Assembly (NCBI GenBank): GCA_027022065.1
Contig: JALVZS010000112.1
Span: 1 to 8,991 of the forward strand
Direction: 5' to 3'
Length of the DNA stretch: 8,991 nucleotides
Source of the DNA: a bacterium
Lineage (GTDB): Bacteria; Thermosulfidibacterota; Thermosulfidibacteria; Thermosulfidibacterales; Thermosulfidibacteraceae
Shown here: positions 3,217 to 8,685 of the stretch, one piece after another
Layout: every line of letters starts with the position of its first letter
Position numbering within the stretch: position 1 is the stretch's first letter
Notes under the pieces: generated by a model
Databases searched by the model: none
Told to the model about the DNA's origin: nothing
The model's input: the letters and a program-made list of their open reading frames with translations, nothing else
Position numbers and translations under genes: made by a program

Positions 3217-4320
3217 ATGATTGATGCTGCAAGCGTTACTATGGAGGAGCTCCTTAAGAAGGTGGTGGAGCTCAACGCCACCGATCTTCACATAAGCGCC
3301 GGTAATCCTCCAAGGGTGAGGATAAGCGGAAGACTAAAGAAGCTTGAGGGGATGCCCGTGTTGTCTCCTGCTGATACCCAGAGGCTCTGCTACAGTGTGA
3401 TGAGCGAGTTTCACAAAAAGATCTTTGAAGAGAAAAACGAGGTGGACTTTTCCTTCGGCATAAGGGGTGTATCAAGGTTCAGGGCCAATGTCTTCATGCA
3501 GAGGGGTTCGGTTTCTGGAGCCTTTAGGCGCATTCCCTACAAGATAATGCCGTTGGACGAGCTGGGATTGCCCCCTGTTGTGAAGAGCTTTGTGAACAAG
3601 CCTAAGGGGCTCGTTTTGGTAACGGGACCCACGGGAAGCGGAAAGTCCACCACCCTTGCTGCCATGATAGATGTGATTAACTCCACCATGGAGAAGCACA
3701 TAATAACCATAGAGGATCCCATAGAGTACATACACAGCCACAAGATGAGCCTCGTGAATCAGAGGGAGGTGGGTTCGGATACCGCTTCATTTAAAGATGC
3801 TTTGAGGTATGTTTTGAGGCAGGATCCAGATGTGGTGCTCATAGGAGAGATGAGGGATCTTGAGAGTATCCAGGCTGCCCTGACAGTTGCGGAAACGGGA
3901 CACCTAACATTTGCCACCCTTCACACCAACAGTGCAGTGGAGACCATAAACAGGATCATAGATGTTTTCCCGTCCCACCAGCAGAATCAGGTGAGGGCCC
4001 AGCTTTCCCACGTTCTTGAGGGTATCATTACCCAGAAGCTGCTTCCCAGGATAGATGGAAAGGGGCTTGTGCTTGCTGCAGAGGTGCTTGTGCCTACACC
4101 CGCTGTTAGGAATCTCATAAGGGAGAACAAGATCCATCAGATATACACGGTGATGCAGGCGGGCCAGATACACCATGGCATGAGAACTATGAATCAGTCC
4201 CTTGCACAGCTCTACAAAGATGGCCTCATATCTTACGAGCAGGCCATTACCAGCTCCTACAACCCAGAGGAGCTTATACCTATGCTGGACAGGATCAAGA
4301 TGTCCAGAGAGAGGCTGTGA
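3217..4320 (+). CDS. pilT: Type IV pilus retraction ATPase PilT
   Basis: A cytoplasmic hexameric ATPase that drives depolymerisation and retraction of type IV pili, giving twitching motility and DNA uptake in species studied. The 367 residues fit the family. The N-terminal PAS-like domain includes the typical ATDLHISAGNPPRVRISGRL stretch (21-40). Walker A is GPTGSGKS (137-144), the Asp-box region contains TIEDPIEY, the Walker B region is DPDVVLIGEMRD (203-214), and the His box includes GHLTFATLHTNS (228-239). The PilT-specific C-terminal motif, usually AIRNLIRE, appears as AVRNLIRE (296-303); this and the lack of CxxC pairs separate it from PilB and fit PilT rather than PilU. AAGGAGG (3205-3211) starts on the last base of the pilB stop and lies 5 nt before ATG 3217. 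The stop shares one base with the argH start, so expression of the two is probably coupled. Confidence 0.95.
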   Translation: MIDAASVTMEELLKKVVELNATDLHISAGNPPRVRISGRLKKLEGMPVLSPADTQRLCYSVMSEFHKKIFEEKNEVDFSFGIRGVSRFRANVFMQRGSVSGAFRRIPYKIMPLDELGLPPVVKSFVNKPKGLVLVTGPTGSGKSTTLAAMIDVINSTMEKHIITIEDPIEYIHSHKMSLVNQREVGSDTASFKDALRYVLRQDPDVVLIGEMRDLESIQAALTVAETGHLTFATLHTNSAVETINRIIDVFPSHQQNQVRAQLSHVLEGIITQKLLPRIDGKGLVLAAEVLVPTPAVRNLIRENKIHQIYTVMQAGQIHHGMRTMNQSLAQLYKDGLISYEQAITSSYNPEELIPMLDRIKMSRERL

Positions 4321-5702
4321 TGGCAAAGCTCTGGGGCGGAAGGTTCCAAAAAGGTACAGATAGGTTTGTGGAGGAGTACACGGAGTCCATATCCTACGAC
4401 AGCAGGCTTTATCCAGAGGACATTGAGGGAAGCATAGCCCACTGTGAGATGCTCGTTAGGCAGAGGATCATTTCAGAAGAGGAAAGTAAAAAGATAATAG
4501 ATGCCCTAAAGGAGATAAAGCGCGAGATAGATGAAAGTGGTGTGGAGATAGATCCCTCTTACGAAGATATTCACACCTACGTTGAAAGCAGACTTAGAGA
4601 AAAGATTGGGGATGTGGCAGGGAAGCTCCACACCGCAAGAAGCAGAAATGATCAGGTGGTAACCGATGTTAAGCTCTATCTGAAGCGGAGTATAAGGGAG
4701 ATAATGACGCTCATTGAGGACTTGCAGAGGCTTTTTGTGAAAAGGGCTAAGGAGGAAATAGACACCATAATGCCTGGTTTTACCCACCTACAGCATGCAC
4801 AGCCCGTGAGTCTGGCCCTTCACCTTTTGGCCTATTACGAGATGCTGGAAAGGGACAGGGGAAGGTTCAACGACTGTCTAAAGCGCATGGATGAATGTCC
4901 CTTGGGCAGTTGCGCCCTTGCGGGAACCGACTTTCCCGTTGACAGGGGGTTTGTTGCGGAAAGACTGGGCTTTTCCGGTGTTACGAAGAATGCCATGGAT
5001 ACTGTCTCAAGTAGGGATTTCATTGTGGAGTTCCTTGCCGCCTCTGCTATTCTCATGATTAATCTCTCCCGTTTCTGCGAGGAGATGGTTCTCTGGAGCT
5101 CGCCGGAGTTTGGTTTTGTTGAGCTTTCGGATGAGGTGTGCACCGGAAGCAGCATAATGCCCCAGAAGAAGAACCCGGATGTGGCAGAGCTGACAAGGGG
5201 TAAAGCGGGAAGGGTTGTGGGAAATCTTGTTTCCCTCCTGGTTACCTTAAAGGGGCTTCCCCTTTCCTACAACAGGGATCTTCAGGAGGACAAGGAGCCT
5301 CTTTTTGACACGGTTGATACCGTGAAAGGGGCTTTGAGGGCTGTTTACCTTGTGCTTGAGGGTGCCCGCTTTAATAAAAGCAGGATGAGAGAAATGGCTG
5401 GGGAGGGCTTCACCGAGGCAACGGATCTTGCAGATTACCTGGTGAGAAAGGGGGTGCCCTTCAGGAGGGCCCATGAGATTGTGGGAAAGATGGTGCTTTA
5501 CTGCATAGAGAAGGGCAAGAGGCTATGTGATATGAGCCTTGATGAGATGAGGTCTTTTTGCGAGCTTGTTGATGGTGGTGTTTATGAGGCCATAGCGCTT
5601 GAAAAGGTTGTGGACTCCAGGCAATCTTTAGGGGGAACATCTAGAAAAGAGCTTAAGAGGAGGATAGAGGAGATTTGCGCTCAAAGGGGCTGGTCTTTAT
5701 AG
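4320..5702 (+). CDS. argH: Argininosuccinate lyase
   Basis: Cleaves argininosuccinate to arginine and fumarate, the last step of arginine biosynthesis, as a cytoplasmic homotetramer of the fumarase/aspartase superfamily. The 460 residues match the bacterial family. Landmarks are the MAKLWGGRF start, the TARSRNDQV stretch near residue 105, THLQHAQP (155-162) with the T-H pair of the active site, and the superfamily signature loop GSSIMPQKKNPD (276-287) with catalytic Ser277 or 278. ATG 4320 is chosen over the in-frame GTG at 4317, since it gives the conserved N-terminus. The A of the ATG is the last base of the pilT stop. The only upstream binding site is a weak GAGG (4311-4314), so translation likely depends on ribosomes leaving pilT. 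Its last 28 nt overlap the following lipoprotein gene. An arginine gene directly behind pilus ATPases is unusual. Confidence 0.96.
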   Translation: MAKLWGGRFQKGTDRFVEEYTESISYDSRLYPEDIEGSIAHCEMLVRQRIISEEESKKIIDALKEIKREIDESGVEIDPSYEDIHTYVESRLREKIGDVAGKLHTARSRNDQVVTDVKLYLKRSIREIMTLIEDLQRLFVKRAKEEIDTIMPGFTHLQHAQPVSLALHLLAYYEMLERDRGRFNDCLKRMDECPLGSCALAGTDFPVDRGFVAERLGFSGVTKNAMDTVSSRDFIVEFLAASAILMINLSRFCEEMVLWSSPEFGFVELSDEVCTGSSIMPQKKNPDVAELTRGKAGRVVGNLVSLLVTLKGLPLSYNRDLQEDKEPLFDTVDTVKGALRAVYLVLEGARFNKSRMREMAGEGFTEATDLADYLVRKGVPFRRAHEIVGKMVLYCIEKGKRLCDMSLDEMRSFCELVDGGVYEAIALEKVVDSRQSLGGTSRKELKRRIEEICAQRGWSL

Positions 5703-6625
5703 CACTTTTGCTTCTGGTGGCCTGTGGTCATAAGGCTCCTCCCCTTCTGCCTGAGCACCTGAAGGCAGAGGGTTTTAGGCATGTGGGCTTTCTTGTGAGG
5801 CCCGGTGAAACCATCATCAAGCTGGATGTTTCGCCTAAGTATGTGAACTCTTCCAAAAAAGTCCATTGGGTTTTTCTTACGGTTAAAAGATGCGATGCCA
5901 ACTGTGGGGACTGCGAGCTTGTCTATCAGGGCAGAAGAAGACCGGGCTTACTTTACATAGAGGACTATCCCGTTACTTCCATCACCTGTTATAAGGTGTA
6001 TGGGAAAACTGACAGAGATGTTCCTTTGAATAGATTCGTCTACATAGTAATGCCCGAAAGCCCACCCTCTAGGGTTAACCTTAAGATAAAAGCCTTTGGG
6101 GAAGACTGGGTTGAGCTTTATCTGAAGGGAAAGGGAAATGTTGCAATTTATAGAAGAAAAGGAGGAAGGCCTTATGACTATGAGCCTGTTTCTGTGGTTC
6201 CCGTTGAGGGCGTGAGGGTTTGGAGGGACACTCATCTTGCAGAGGGGACTTTATACTGCTACAGCGCTAGATCACGCCGGGGAGACAGCGTGGTGCTCTT
6301 TGAGTCCTTCTCTTCAAATGAGGTTTGCGCAAAACCCTTGGACATATACCCTCCTCCTGTTCCCAAACACCTTTCTGGCATATACAGAAGGGGCAGGGTT
6401 TATCTCACCTGGGATCCCGTGAAGGCAAAAGATCTAAAGGGCTATTTCGTTTACAGAAAGATAGGTAATAAGTGGGTAAGACTCAACAGGGAGCCTGTGG
6501 CCGCTCCGCTTTATGAGGATAAAGGTCCGTTTAGGGAAAAAAGGCTTATTTATGCCGTTTCCTCTGTTGACATGAAGGGTAACGAAAGTGCAAAATCTCA
6601 GCCCGCAGTAATAAGAAGGAGGTGA
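5675..6625 (+). CDS. Lipoprotein with LptM-like N-terminus and fibronectin-III-like modules
   Basis: Residues 1-17 form a lipoprotein signal peptide: a short basic n-region (MRSK), a hydrophobic core and lipobox LVAC with the lipidated Cys17. The mature start CGHKAPPLLP resembles the CG-x-KGP---P start of LptM/YifL lipoproteins. Gly at +2 does not signal inner-membrane retention, so an outer-membrane anchor is expected. The 316-residue length is far beyond LptM. The rest looks like three beta-sandwich modules (about 30-128, 130-222 and 226-316). The last is clearly fibronectin-III-like (YLTWDPV ... LKGYFVYRK ... IYAVSSVDMKGNES). Six further cysteines (73, 77, 80, 105, 195, 218) could form disulfides. 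The start is TTG 5675, the only start codon after an in-frame stop at 5654 that supplies a complete signal peptide; AGGAGG (5658-5663) and AGAGGAG (5666-5672) precede it. It overlaps argH by 28 nt and ends 2 nt before lysA. Function is unknown; envelope assembly or scaffolding is an inference. Confidence 0.85.
   Translation: MRSKGLVFIALLLLVACGHKAPPLLPEHLKAEGFRHVGFLVRPGETIIKLDVSPKYVNSSKKVHWVFLTVKRCDANCGDCELVYQGRRRPGLLYIEDYPVTSITCYKVYGKTDRDVPLNRFVYIVMPESPPSRVNLKIKAFGEDWVELYLKGKGNVAIYRRKGGRPYDYEPVSVVPVEGVRVWRDTHLAEGTLYCYSARSRRGDSVVLFESFSSNEVCAKPLDIYPPPVPKHLSGIYRRGRVYLTWDPVKAKDLKGYFVYRKIGNKWVRLNREPVAAPLYEDKGPFREKRLIYAVSSVDMKGNESAKSQPAVIRRR
6616..6622 (+). promoter_or_regulatory. Ribosome binding site that fixes the lysA start at 6628
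   Basis: AAGGAGG lies 5 nt before ATG 6628. The in-frame GTG at 6622 overlaps this element and so cannot be its target; the ATG start shortens LysA by two residues. The lipoprotein stop TGA (6623-6625) lies between the site and the ATG, so the two genes are nearly contiguous. Confidence 0.75.
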
Positions 6626-6627
6626 AG

Positions 6628-7887
6628 ATGGCCTTCTCTTACAGGGACGGGGTTCTTCACTGTGAGGATGTTCCTTTAAGTGAGATTGCAGAAAGGGTGG
6701 GAACGCCCTGCTACATTTACAGCTATAAGGCCATAGTTGAGGGTATAAGGTCCTACCTTTTGCCCCTTGCAGAAGTGGGGGGCATAGCCTGCTTTGCTGT
6801 TAAGGCCAATTCAAACTTGGCCGTTCTAAGAGCTGTTTTCGGAGAGGGTGCAGGTGCAGATATCGTTAGCGGTGGTGAGCTGTTCAGGGCCGTAAGGGCA
6901 GGTGTGGATACGCAAAAGGTGGTGTTTGCAGGTGTGGGAAAGACCGAAAAGGAGATGGAGTACGCCCTCAGGATGAACATACTTATGTTCAATGTGGAGT
7001 CTTGGCAGGAGCTAGAGCTTTTGAACGAGGTTGCTGGAAGATTGGGCAAAAAAGCTCCTGTGGCCATAAGGATAAATCCAGATGTGGACCCGGAAACCCA
7101 TCCCTACATAGCCACAGGCCTTAAAAAGAGCAAGTTCGGGATAGACATGGAGGAGGCCGAGGAGGTTTACAAAAAGGCCTTGTCCCTTACAAACATAGAA
7201 GTTTTGGGCATTCACTGCCACATAGGCTCACAGATAACGAAGAAGGAGCCTTTTATTGATGCTGCCGAAAGGCTCTTTTCCCTCATTGATAGGCTTAATG
7301 CCCTTGGTGTGAACCTCAAGTACATGGACATAGGGGGAGGGATAGGGATAAGGTATAAAGATGAGGAACCTCCTGCGCCTTCTGAGGTGATTTCTTCTAT
7401 AAAGGATGAGGTGAAGAAAAGAGGTTTAACCCTCATCATGGAGCCTGGACGCTCTGTTGTGGGAAATGCCGGTGTGTTTCTAACCAAGGTGCTTTATGTG
7501 AAGAAGAAGGCCGAAAAGCTTTTCTATGTTGTGGATGGTGCCATGAACGACCTTGCGAGACCTGCCCTCTACAACGCCTATCACGAGGTTAAGTCCGTGG
7601 TTCAAAAGGAGGATTCTAGCGTTATAGCCGATGTAGTGGGTCCTATATGTGAGACGGGAGATTTCCTGGCAAAAGACAGAAAACTTCCTGAGTTTGAGAA
7701 GGGAGAGTTGCTTGCTGTTATGGGTGCTGGGGCATACGGTTTCACCATGGCTTCCAACTACAACTCCCGTCCCAGGGTGGCTGAGGTGATGGTGAGAGGA
7801 AACGAGTGGTTCGTCGTTAGAGAGAGGGAGAGCTACGAGGATCTTATAAGGGGAGAGAAGATACCTTCCTTCCTGCTGGGGGTCTAG
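6628..7887 (+). CDS. lysA: Diaminopimelate decarboxylase
   Basis: A PLP enzyme (fold type III, alanine-racemase-like barrel) that decarboxylates meso-diaminopimelate to L-lysine, the last step of lysine synthesis. It is cytoplasmic and normally dimeric. The 419 residues fit the family. PLP-binding Lys59 lies in FAVKAN (56-61), HCHIGSQI is at 196-203, and the glycine-rich phosphate-binding loop DIGGGIG is at 234-240. EPGRSVV (272-278) is present, as is CETGDFLA (341-348), whose Cys acts at the active site of the partner subunit. GAYGFTMASNYNSRPR (368-383) carries the conserved Tyr370. All key residues are present. Order is lipoprotein-lysA-dapF-dapA, with 2 nt before it and 3 nt before dapF. 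The cofactor-site pattern and the dapF/dapA neighbours favour diaminopimelate over ornithine/arginine decarboxylase. Confidence 0.97.
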   Translation: MAFSYRDGVLHCEDVPLSEIAERVGTPCYIYSYKAIVEGIRSYLLPLAEVGGIACFAVKANSNLAVLRAVFGEGAGADIVSGGELFRAVRAGVDTQKVVFAGVGKTEKEMEYALRMNILMFNVESWQELELLNEVAGRLGKKAPVAIRINPDVDPETHPYIATGLKKSKFGIDMEEAEEVYKKALSLTNIEVLGIHCHIGSQITKKEPFIDAAERLFSLIDRLNALGVNLKYMDIGGGIGIRYKDEEPPAPSEVISSIKDEVKKRGLTLIMEPGRSVVGNAGVFLTKVLYVKKKAEKLFYVVDGAMNDLARPALYNAYHEVKSVVQKEDSSVIADVVGPICETGDFLAKDRKLPEFEKGELLAVMGAGAYGFTMASNYNSRPRVAEVMVRGNEWFVVRERESYEDLIRGEKIPSFLLGV

Positions 7888-7890
7888 GAA

Positions 7891-8685
7891 ATGCGCTTTT
7901 CAAAGCTTTCCGGCTCGGGCAATGACTTCATAATCATAGACAACATGGATCTAAAAATAGATGCCGATGCGTTCAGAGAAAAGATTCCCAAGATATGCAG
8001 AAGAGCCATTTCCGTGGGGGCAGACGGCGTCATAATCATTGAGCCTTCCGATAGGGCGGATTTCAAGTGGAGGTTCTTCAACTCCGATGGCTCAGAGGCA
8101 GAAATGTGCGGAAACGGAGGGAGATGCGCTGCCCGCTTTGCCTACGAGAGGGGAATAGCTCCTCAGGTTATGCGATTTGAAACCCTTGCGGGTATAATAA
8201 AGGCCGAGGTGAAGGGGCGCCTGGTAAAGGTGCAGTTGACGGATCCCTATGGGCTTGTGCTGGACAGCAGGCTTGAGGACCTGGGCATAACCTACAGCTT
8301 TGTGAATACAGGGGTGCCCCACGTGGTTTTAATGGTGGACGACTTGGAATCTGTGGATGTTGAGGGTTTGGGAAGAAGGGTGAGGTTTCATCCTGTCTTT
8401 GCCCCTGCTGGAACTAACGTAAACTTTGTTTGTATAAAGGACGGCAGGCTCTACATAAGGACCTACGAGAGGGGGGTTGAGGCGGAGACTTTGGCCTGTG
8501 GAACAGGGGCTTCTGCCTCTGCGTATATTGCCATTAAAAAGGGACTGTTAAATCCACCTGTTGAAGTGGTTACCAAAAGCGGAGAGGTTTTGAAAATATA
8601 CCTTGAAAATGGTAAGCTGTTTCTTGAGGGGCTTACCAGGTGGGTTTACGATGGTATCCTGAAAGAGGAAGCATGGGAGGATTAA
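7891..8685 (+). CDS. dapF: Diaminopimelate epimerase
   Basis: A cofactor-independent racemase that converts LL-diaminopimelate to meso-diaminopimelate, the substrate of LysA and of peptidoglycan precursor ligation. The 264 residues are close to the usual 270-280. The two catalytic cysteines are both visible: Cys73 in [12 protein letters not shown] (72-83) and Cys203 in ACGTGASAS (202-210). The N-terminus has the typical [13 protein letters not shown]. The ATG lies 3 nt after the lysA stop with only a short AGGA overlapping that stop and a G-run further up, so it probably relies on coupling to lysA. Its own stop is followed by a strong ribosome binding site for dapA. Position behind a lipoprotein gene and lysA recalls the lptM-lysA-dapF order of some gammaproteobacteria. 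Confidence 0.97.

Follow-up and report, generated by a model that had tools for sequence, protein, structure and literature searches.

The LPS translocon is an antibiotic target, and in LptD of this machinery C173 and C725 join the beta-taco and the barrel. The described protein closest to the one analysed here is the lipoprotein LptM (YifL, Enterobacteriaceae; families NF047847 and PF13627 LptM_cons), which in E. coli counts 67 aa, carries a short mobile tail and is encoded directly before dapF. Cryo-EM places the first ten mature residues of E. coli LptM (20–29) at the lateral gate of LptD; a variant lacking residues 44–67 still co-purifies with LptD, whereas removal of residues 22–30 strongly impairs the association (PMC12644819; see also PMC12685063). 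A salt bridge between LptM K23 and LptD E275 has been predicted, the tail behind the motif is generally shorter than 70 aa, and lptM-like genes were reported in 2023 to be virtually absent outside Proteobacteria (PMC10567701). Another lipoprotein of the E. coli translocon, LptY (YedD), sits in the outer membrane and holds the beta-taco of LptD with its periplasmic domain (PMC12644819); a reference of that paper describes it as a lipocalin. LptY is encoded by a separate gene and is known mainly from Enterobacteriaceae and a few relatives. A search of the open-access literature returned no paper describing an LptM-type start followed by a tail of fibronectin type III (FN3) domains.

We analysed a stretch of 8,991 nucleotides (the window) from a genome of the Thermosulfidibacteraceae, whose order was the sole order of its phylum among the surveyed genomes. 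On the forward strand, an open reading frame with a TTG start (5675–6625) encodes a protein of 316 aa between argH (4317–5702; Pfam Lyase_1, 2.5e-81, plus ASL_C2) and lysA (6622–7887; Orn_Arg_deC_N, 3.7e-65), with dapF next after lysA (7891–8685; DAP_epimerase, 1e-51), all on the same strand. The preliminary description, which had reported a 316-residue lipoprotein in the position before lysA-dapF, was right on both length and place. The window gene thus precedes lysA-dapF where E. coli lptM directly precedes dapF, and argH and lysA flank it in relatives too. It overlaps argH by 28 bases and lysA abuts its 3′ end. Two upstream genes are named pilB and pilT by sequence only; a tRNA-Met gene (CAT) lies at 1359–1433, between an open reading frame at 614–1312 and pilB.

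A scan of genome contigs found two relatives, and two further genomes from the same family hold homologues with 41% and 39% identity at this locus, which show the frame to be a real gene. A TTG start that overlaps argH, in a fragmented metagenome-assembled genome, might still betray a mis-called frame or an artefact. We regard this as highly improbable, since the homologues come from other assemblies, the purine-rich AGAGGAG directly 5′ of the TTG rates as a good ribosome-binding site and the last of the three modules described below is modelled confidently as a beta-sandwich.

The protein opens with a signal peptide (residues 1–16, MRSKGLVFIALLLLVA; 5675–5722) with the lipobox LVAC, recognized in the sequence, in a lipobox scan (hydropathy 2.6–3.3) and in the alignment to NF047847. 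The mature start is CGHKAPPLLP (residues 17–26; 5723–5752), that is, the lipidated Cys, Gly+2, Lys+4 and Pro+6/+7, so that lipobox and CG-x-K-x-P start are common to this protein and LptM, as had been noticed earlier. The NCBIfam LptM model NF047847 spans both signal and mature start; positions 1–30 of its 31 align to residues 1–27, and the window protein is its top match in its own genome. The score is 19.3 bits in the protein search and 20.9 bits (E 9e-4) in the whole-genome search, under the curated cut-off of 27.7 bits. The LptM profile search suggested in the preliminary description therefore placed the protein first but below the family threshold, for which reason the window protein is called LptM-like here and not LptM. 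The runner-up in the same genome is an unrelated lipoprotein at 20.6 bits; since it scores nearly as high, the motif alone is not diagnostic. This second protein (L034; G000:C55:836-889) starts with CGFKKPSGFP, is encoded by a frame of 156 aa and follows a TPR-like gene.

The same start recurs in relatives. In an alignment of 16 long relatives, C17 and G18 are invariant, position +4 is Lys or Arg in 16/16 and nearly all have a Pro at +6 or +7, at a cross-phylum identity of about 21–26%. Long relatives that exceed the 27.7-bit cut-off of NF047847 are found in G092 (32.9), G041 (27.9) and G234 (27.8), the latter two with scores that count neighbouring in-frame matches. The short proteins in the same genomic slot also match the LptM models: of 13 slot-protein rows, the window protein included, NF047847 matches 11 (best 2.8e-10) and PF13627 matches 6 (best 4e-9). 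Judged by the top rank of the window protein in its own genome, its resemblance to LptM exceeds chance.

Behind this start, the two proteins part company: E. coli LptM ends in its short tail, while the window protein continues for about 290 aa of FN3 structure. An AlphaFold2 model built with three sequences shows consecutive beta-sandwiches (pLDDT 75.5, pTM 0.46; the orientation between modules is unreliable). Module 1 (about residues 32–127; 5768–6055), which carries Cys 73, 77, 80 and 105, is delineated by AlphaFold2 (strands from E36 to E125), the profile and Foldseek; module 2 (about residues 130–221; 6062–6337), with Cys 195 and 218, by the profile, AlphaFold2 and tandem structural matches covering 130–316. 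Module 3 (residues 222–316; 6338–6622) is the best conserved, with invariant columns in the 16 relatives (W246, Y257, R261, Y293), and superposes on myomesin My4 with a VIA-align Z of 13.2 and an rmsd of 1.9 Å over 91 residues. Foldseek gave its best matches to tandems of three modules, from tenascin, fibronectin and titin, and a profile of the 16 long relatives aligns with the titin FN3 tandem over positions 46–320 (E 4e-39). Searched alone, the window protein has no Pfam match at E values up to 10, to fn3 or any other family, and gives only chance matches in a phmmer search against the PDB, so the FN3 nature is visible only through the alignment profile and the fold; fn3 (PF00041) is found in 8/16 relatives with an E limit of 1 (best 2.3e-14). 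The model and profile confirm FN3 over nearly all of the mature protein, in three modules at about residues 32–316 that account for more than 85% of its length. The earlier view of an FN3-like C-terminal part was correct as to the fold, which structure prediction recovered, and too narrow as to its extent; the fn3 search proposed with it succeeded in relatives and failed in the window protein itself. The array resembles tandem FN3 proteins such as titin and fibronectin (PF00041) in having three consecutive sandwiches, and differs from them in being lipid-anchored, bacterial, periplasmic and too divergent for Pfam fn3. We take the matches of NF041611 (exoglucanase CbhB) to 12/16 long members to be probable FN3 cross-matches and no evidence for a glycanase.

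Apart from the lipidated residue 17, the protein has the six extra cysteines that had been counted before (73, 77, 80, 105, 195 and 218). These are invariant in all three genomes that represent the window's family; other families of its order keep only a Cys73/Cys80-like pair and the wider group does not keep them, which makes them a family-level addition.

We then considered the slot before lysA across bacteria. The lysA regions of 100 genomes, picked by LysA similarity and nearly all from different families, gave 110 loci after removal of one duplicate and addition of eleven earlier loci; lipoprotein starts were found with a home-made lipobox scanner of incomplete sensitivity, so that L044 and L116 came from a looser scan and L008 from inspection by eye. 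A CG-x-[K/R/M] start was present in 30/34 lipoprotein-like frames ending directly before lysA and in 0/27 elsewhere in the same loci, and without the window's order in 24/28 versus 0/27 (p 9e-12, with slot counts that are phylogenetically non-independent). Over 800 kb sampled from six genomes with a slot lipoprotein, the motif occurred in 1/19 lipobox candidates, namely the slot protein itself, giving a background outside the slot of 0/45 candidates (27 from the same loci and 18 from the 800 kb). Across 386 genomes, about 14 of the roughly 90 best matches of the LptM model lay directly before lysA (counted by eye), where a rough uniform model would predict 0.02; the matches away from lysA are in part background (substrate-binding proteins, beta-sheet lipoproteins) and in part short LptM-like or FN3 forms. 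Among frames far from lysA, L158 and L159 encode 38–40 aa with the starts CGRKTDIVPP and CGHKTDIVPP and are possible minimal LptM forms.

The proteins in the slot differ widely in length: 18–92 aa after the Cys in 12 genomes, 127–177 aa in 3 and 280–418 aa in 18. The short CGxKGPP lipoproteins of other diderms (for example L039, L046 and L056) have the slot and the mature start of the window protein, and their genes likewise follow argH and precede lysA; unlike it, the short forms lack FN3 modules. In many loci argH lies upstream of short and long forms alike, and CG-x-[KR]-x-P is common to both in the argH-X-lysA(-dapF) slot of different lineages. The motif is also kept in long forms that do not adjoin lysA (L162, L165). 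The preliminary description had named, as findings that would speak against it, the lack of an FN3 fold or homologues devoid of motif and lysA linkage; the FN3 fold is present, and homologues keep motif and linkage alike. On a quick, single-gene LysA tree, short and long forms are interleaved within one part, hence repeated changes between short and long or movement of the gene; the tree is silent on direction. Possible intermediates between the two are L090, a slot lipoprotein of 127 aa with several cysteines (CASCPF), and L163, a form of 269 aa with two FN3-like repeats. One family (L162 in G232, L236, L247) has long forms of about 363 aa starting with CGR[SK]GPPVVP; L236 and L247 still have argH upstream, with no lysA directly downstream.

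The long form was found in at least four phyla. The nearest named record comes from a 'Deferribacteres bacterium' metagenome-assembled genome. Two other small phyla have the long form in every sampled genome (2/2 and 4/4), and in a fourth phylum it is present in 81/95 genomes, with one match each and nearly always at full length. In 20 loci of this last phylum, argH was upstream in 20/20 and lysA downstream in 13/20, and nearly all readable mature starts fit CG-x-[KR]-x-P.

We analysed the presence and the state of LptD in these genomes. In G001 and G002, which belong to the window's family, LptD retains residues equivalent to E. coli C173, C725 and E275, and so does LptD from the other families in the order. 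Beyond the C173/C725 equivalents, the disulfide set in this order differs from that of E. coli: several LptD proteins (L143–L148, L167) have extra cysteines (LKCDR; a second Cys soon after TTC). As a sign of co-evolution, the acid at the E275 position does not discriminate, since most genomes have it whether or not they carry a slot lipoprotein; it is therefore compatible with docking, not diagnostic of it. Searches of the window's own assembly (88% complete, 251 contigs) recovered LpxC and an LptA-like protein but no LptD. The missing LptD is likely due to an assembly gap, because LptD with both cysteine equivalents is present in the two other genomes of the family, at 77% identity to each other (G002 versus G001). 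Over the survey, LptD (PF04453) is commoner in genomes with a slot lipoprotein, 23/33 versus 20/77 (p 3e-5, uncorrected for relatedness), and 10/33 slot-positive genomes have no detectable LptD by this model, whose sensitivity is incomplete: it missed G002, where LptD was recovered by homology.

Taken together, we read the window gene as a long-form counterpart of lptM by position, with a start that would dock at the LptD gate and an FN3 array that would act as a scaffold (probability about 0.6). Our confidence is somewhat higher for one part of this reading, the descent of the slot gene from a shared LptM-type ancestor. The segment conserved in the slot lipoproteins is the LptM gate segment of E. 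coli, and by analogy we infer that the long form binds LptD. Of the two origins first envisaged, an LptM-like element extended with an extracytoplasmic scaffold is favoured by the slot and motif shared between short and long forms, and a convergent motif is disfavoured by its absence from the 27 other candidates in the loci and the 18 in the 800 kb. Convergence would make CG-x-K-x-P a generic signal for outer-membrane export plus a proline-rich spacer, in an unrelated FN3 lipoprotein standing before lysA by chance. The motif does occur in other lipoproteins, such as the CGFKKP lipoprotein encoded elsewhere in the window's genome and a substrate-binding protein of G373 that starts with CGQKGP. 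We nevertheless find this account quite unlikely, given how tightly motif and position are tied in short and long forms, the low background, the intermediates of 127–177 aa in the same slot and the fact that long forms away from lysA still carry the motif.

A different account accepts the relation to lptM and supposes that the function has moved on, leaving an FN3 scaffold anchored in the outer membrane, its ligand being glycan, peptidoglycan or a further protein of the envelope, with an inherited lipobox context that no longer touches LptD. FN3 arrays often act as spacers or binders and here make up most of the protein, and the slot-positive genomes without detectable LptD, like the negative search in the window's own assembly, point the same way. 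A bare lipobox, however, requires neither the Lys/Arg at +4 nor the Pro at +6/+7 that persist at such low identity; the gene is conserved with a single match per genome; and a single Pfam model detects LptD incompletely. We therefore consider a change of function possible though unlikely.

On the preferred reading, docking of the start at LptD, the lipidated Cys and the first ten or so residues would sit, like those of E. coli LptM, at the barrel's lateral gate and would lower the barrier to gate opening and to correct formation of the disulfides between beta-taco and barrel. A stiff periplasmic FN3 array would take over from the short, flexible end that LptM has in E. coli and stay near the gate, where it may hold the beta-taco, LptA or the BAM complex. 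In E. coli, this scaffold role is filled in part by LptY, a possible functional analogue of the FN3 part for which we claim no homology, the window protein having FN3 sandwiches and no lipocalin. A bolder and, in our view, doubtful extension would make the FN3 lipoprotein an old, widespread form of LptM in diderms, its N-terminus wedging the LptD gate and the covalently attached array holding either the LptA bridge or the beta-taco; a single protein would then do the work that enterobacteria divide between LptM and LptY, and the short forms would be reductions.

These results suggest that the LptM component has a longer history and takes more forms than had been assumed. If an LptD-docking segment rides on a conserved single-copy lipoprotein in several other phyla, assistance at the gate would be a general feature of the translocon, and the slot before lysA would offer a natural experiment in which the ten gate residues are kept and everything behind them is exchanged.
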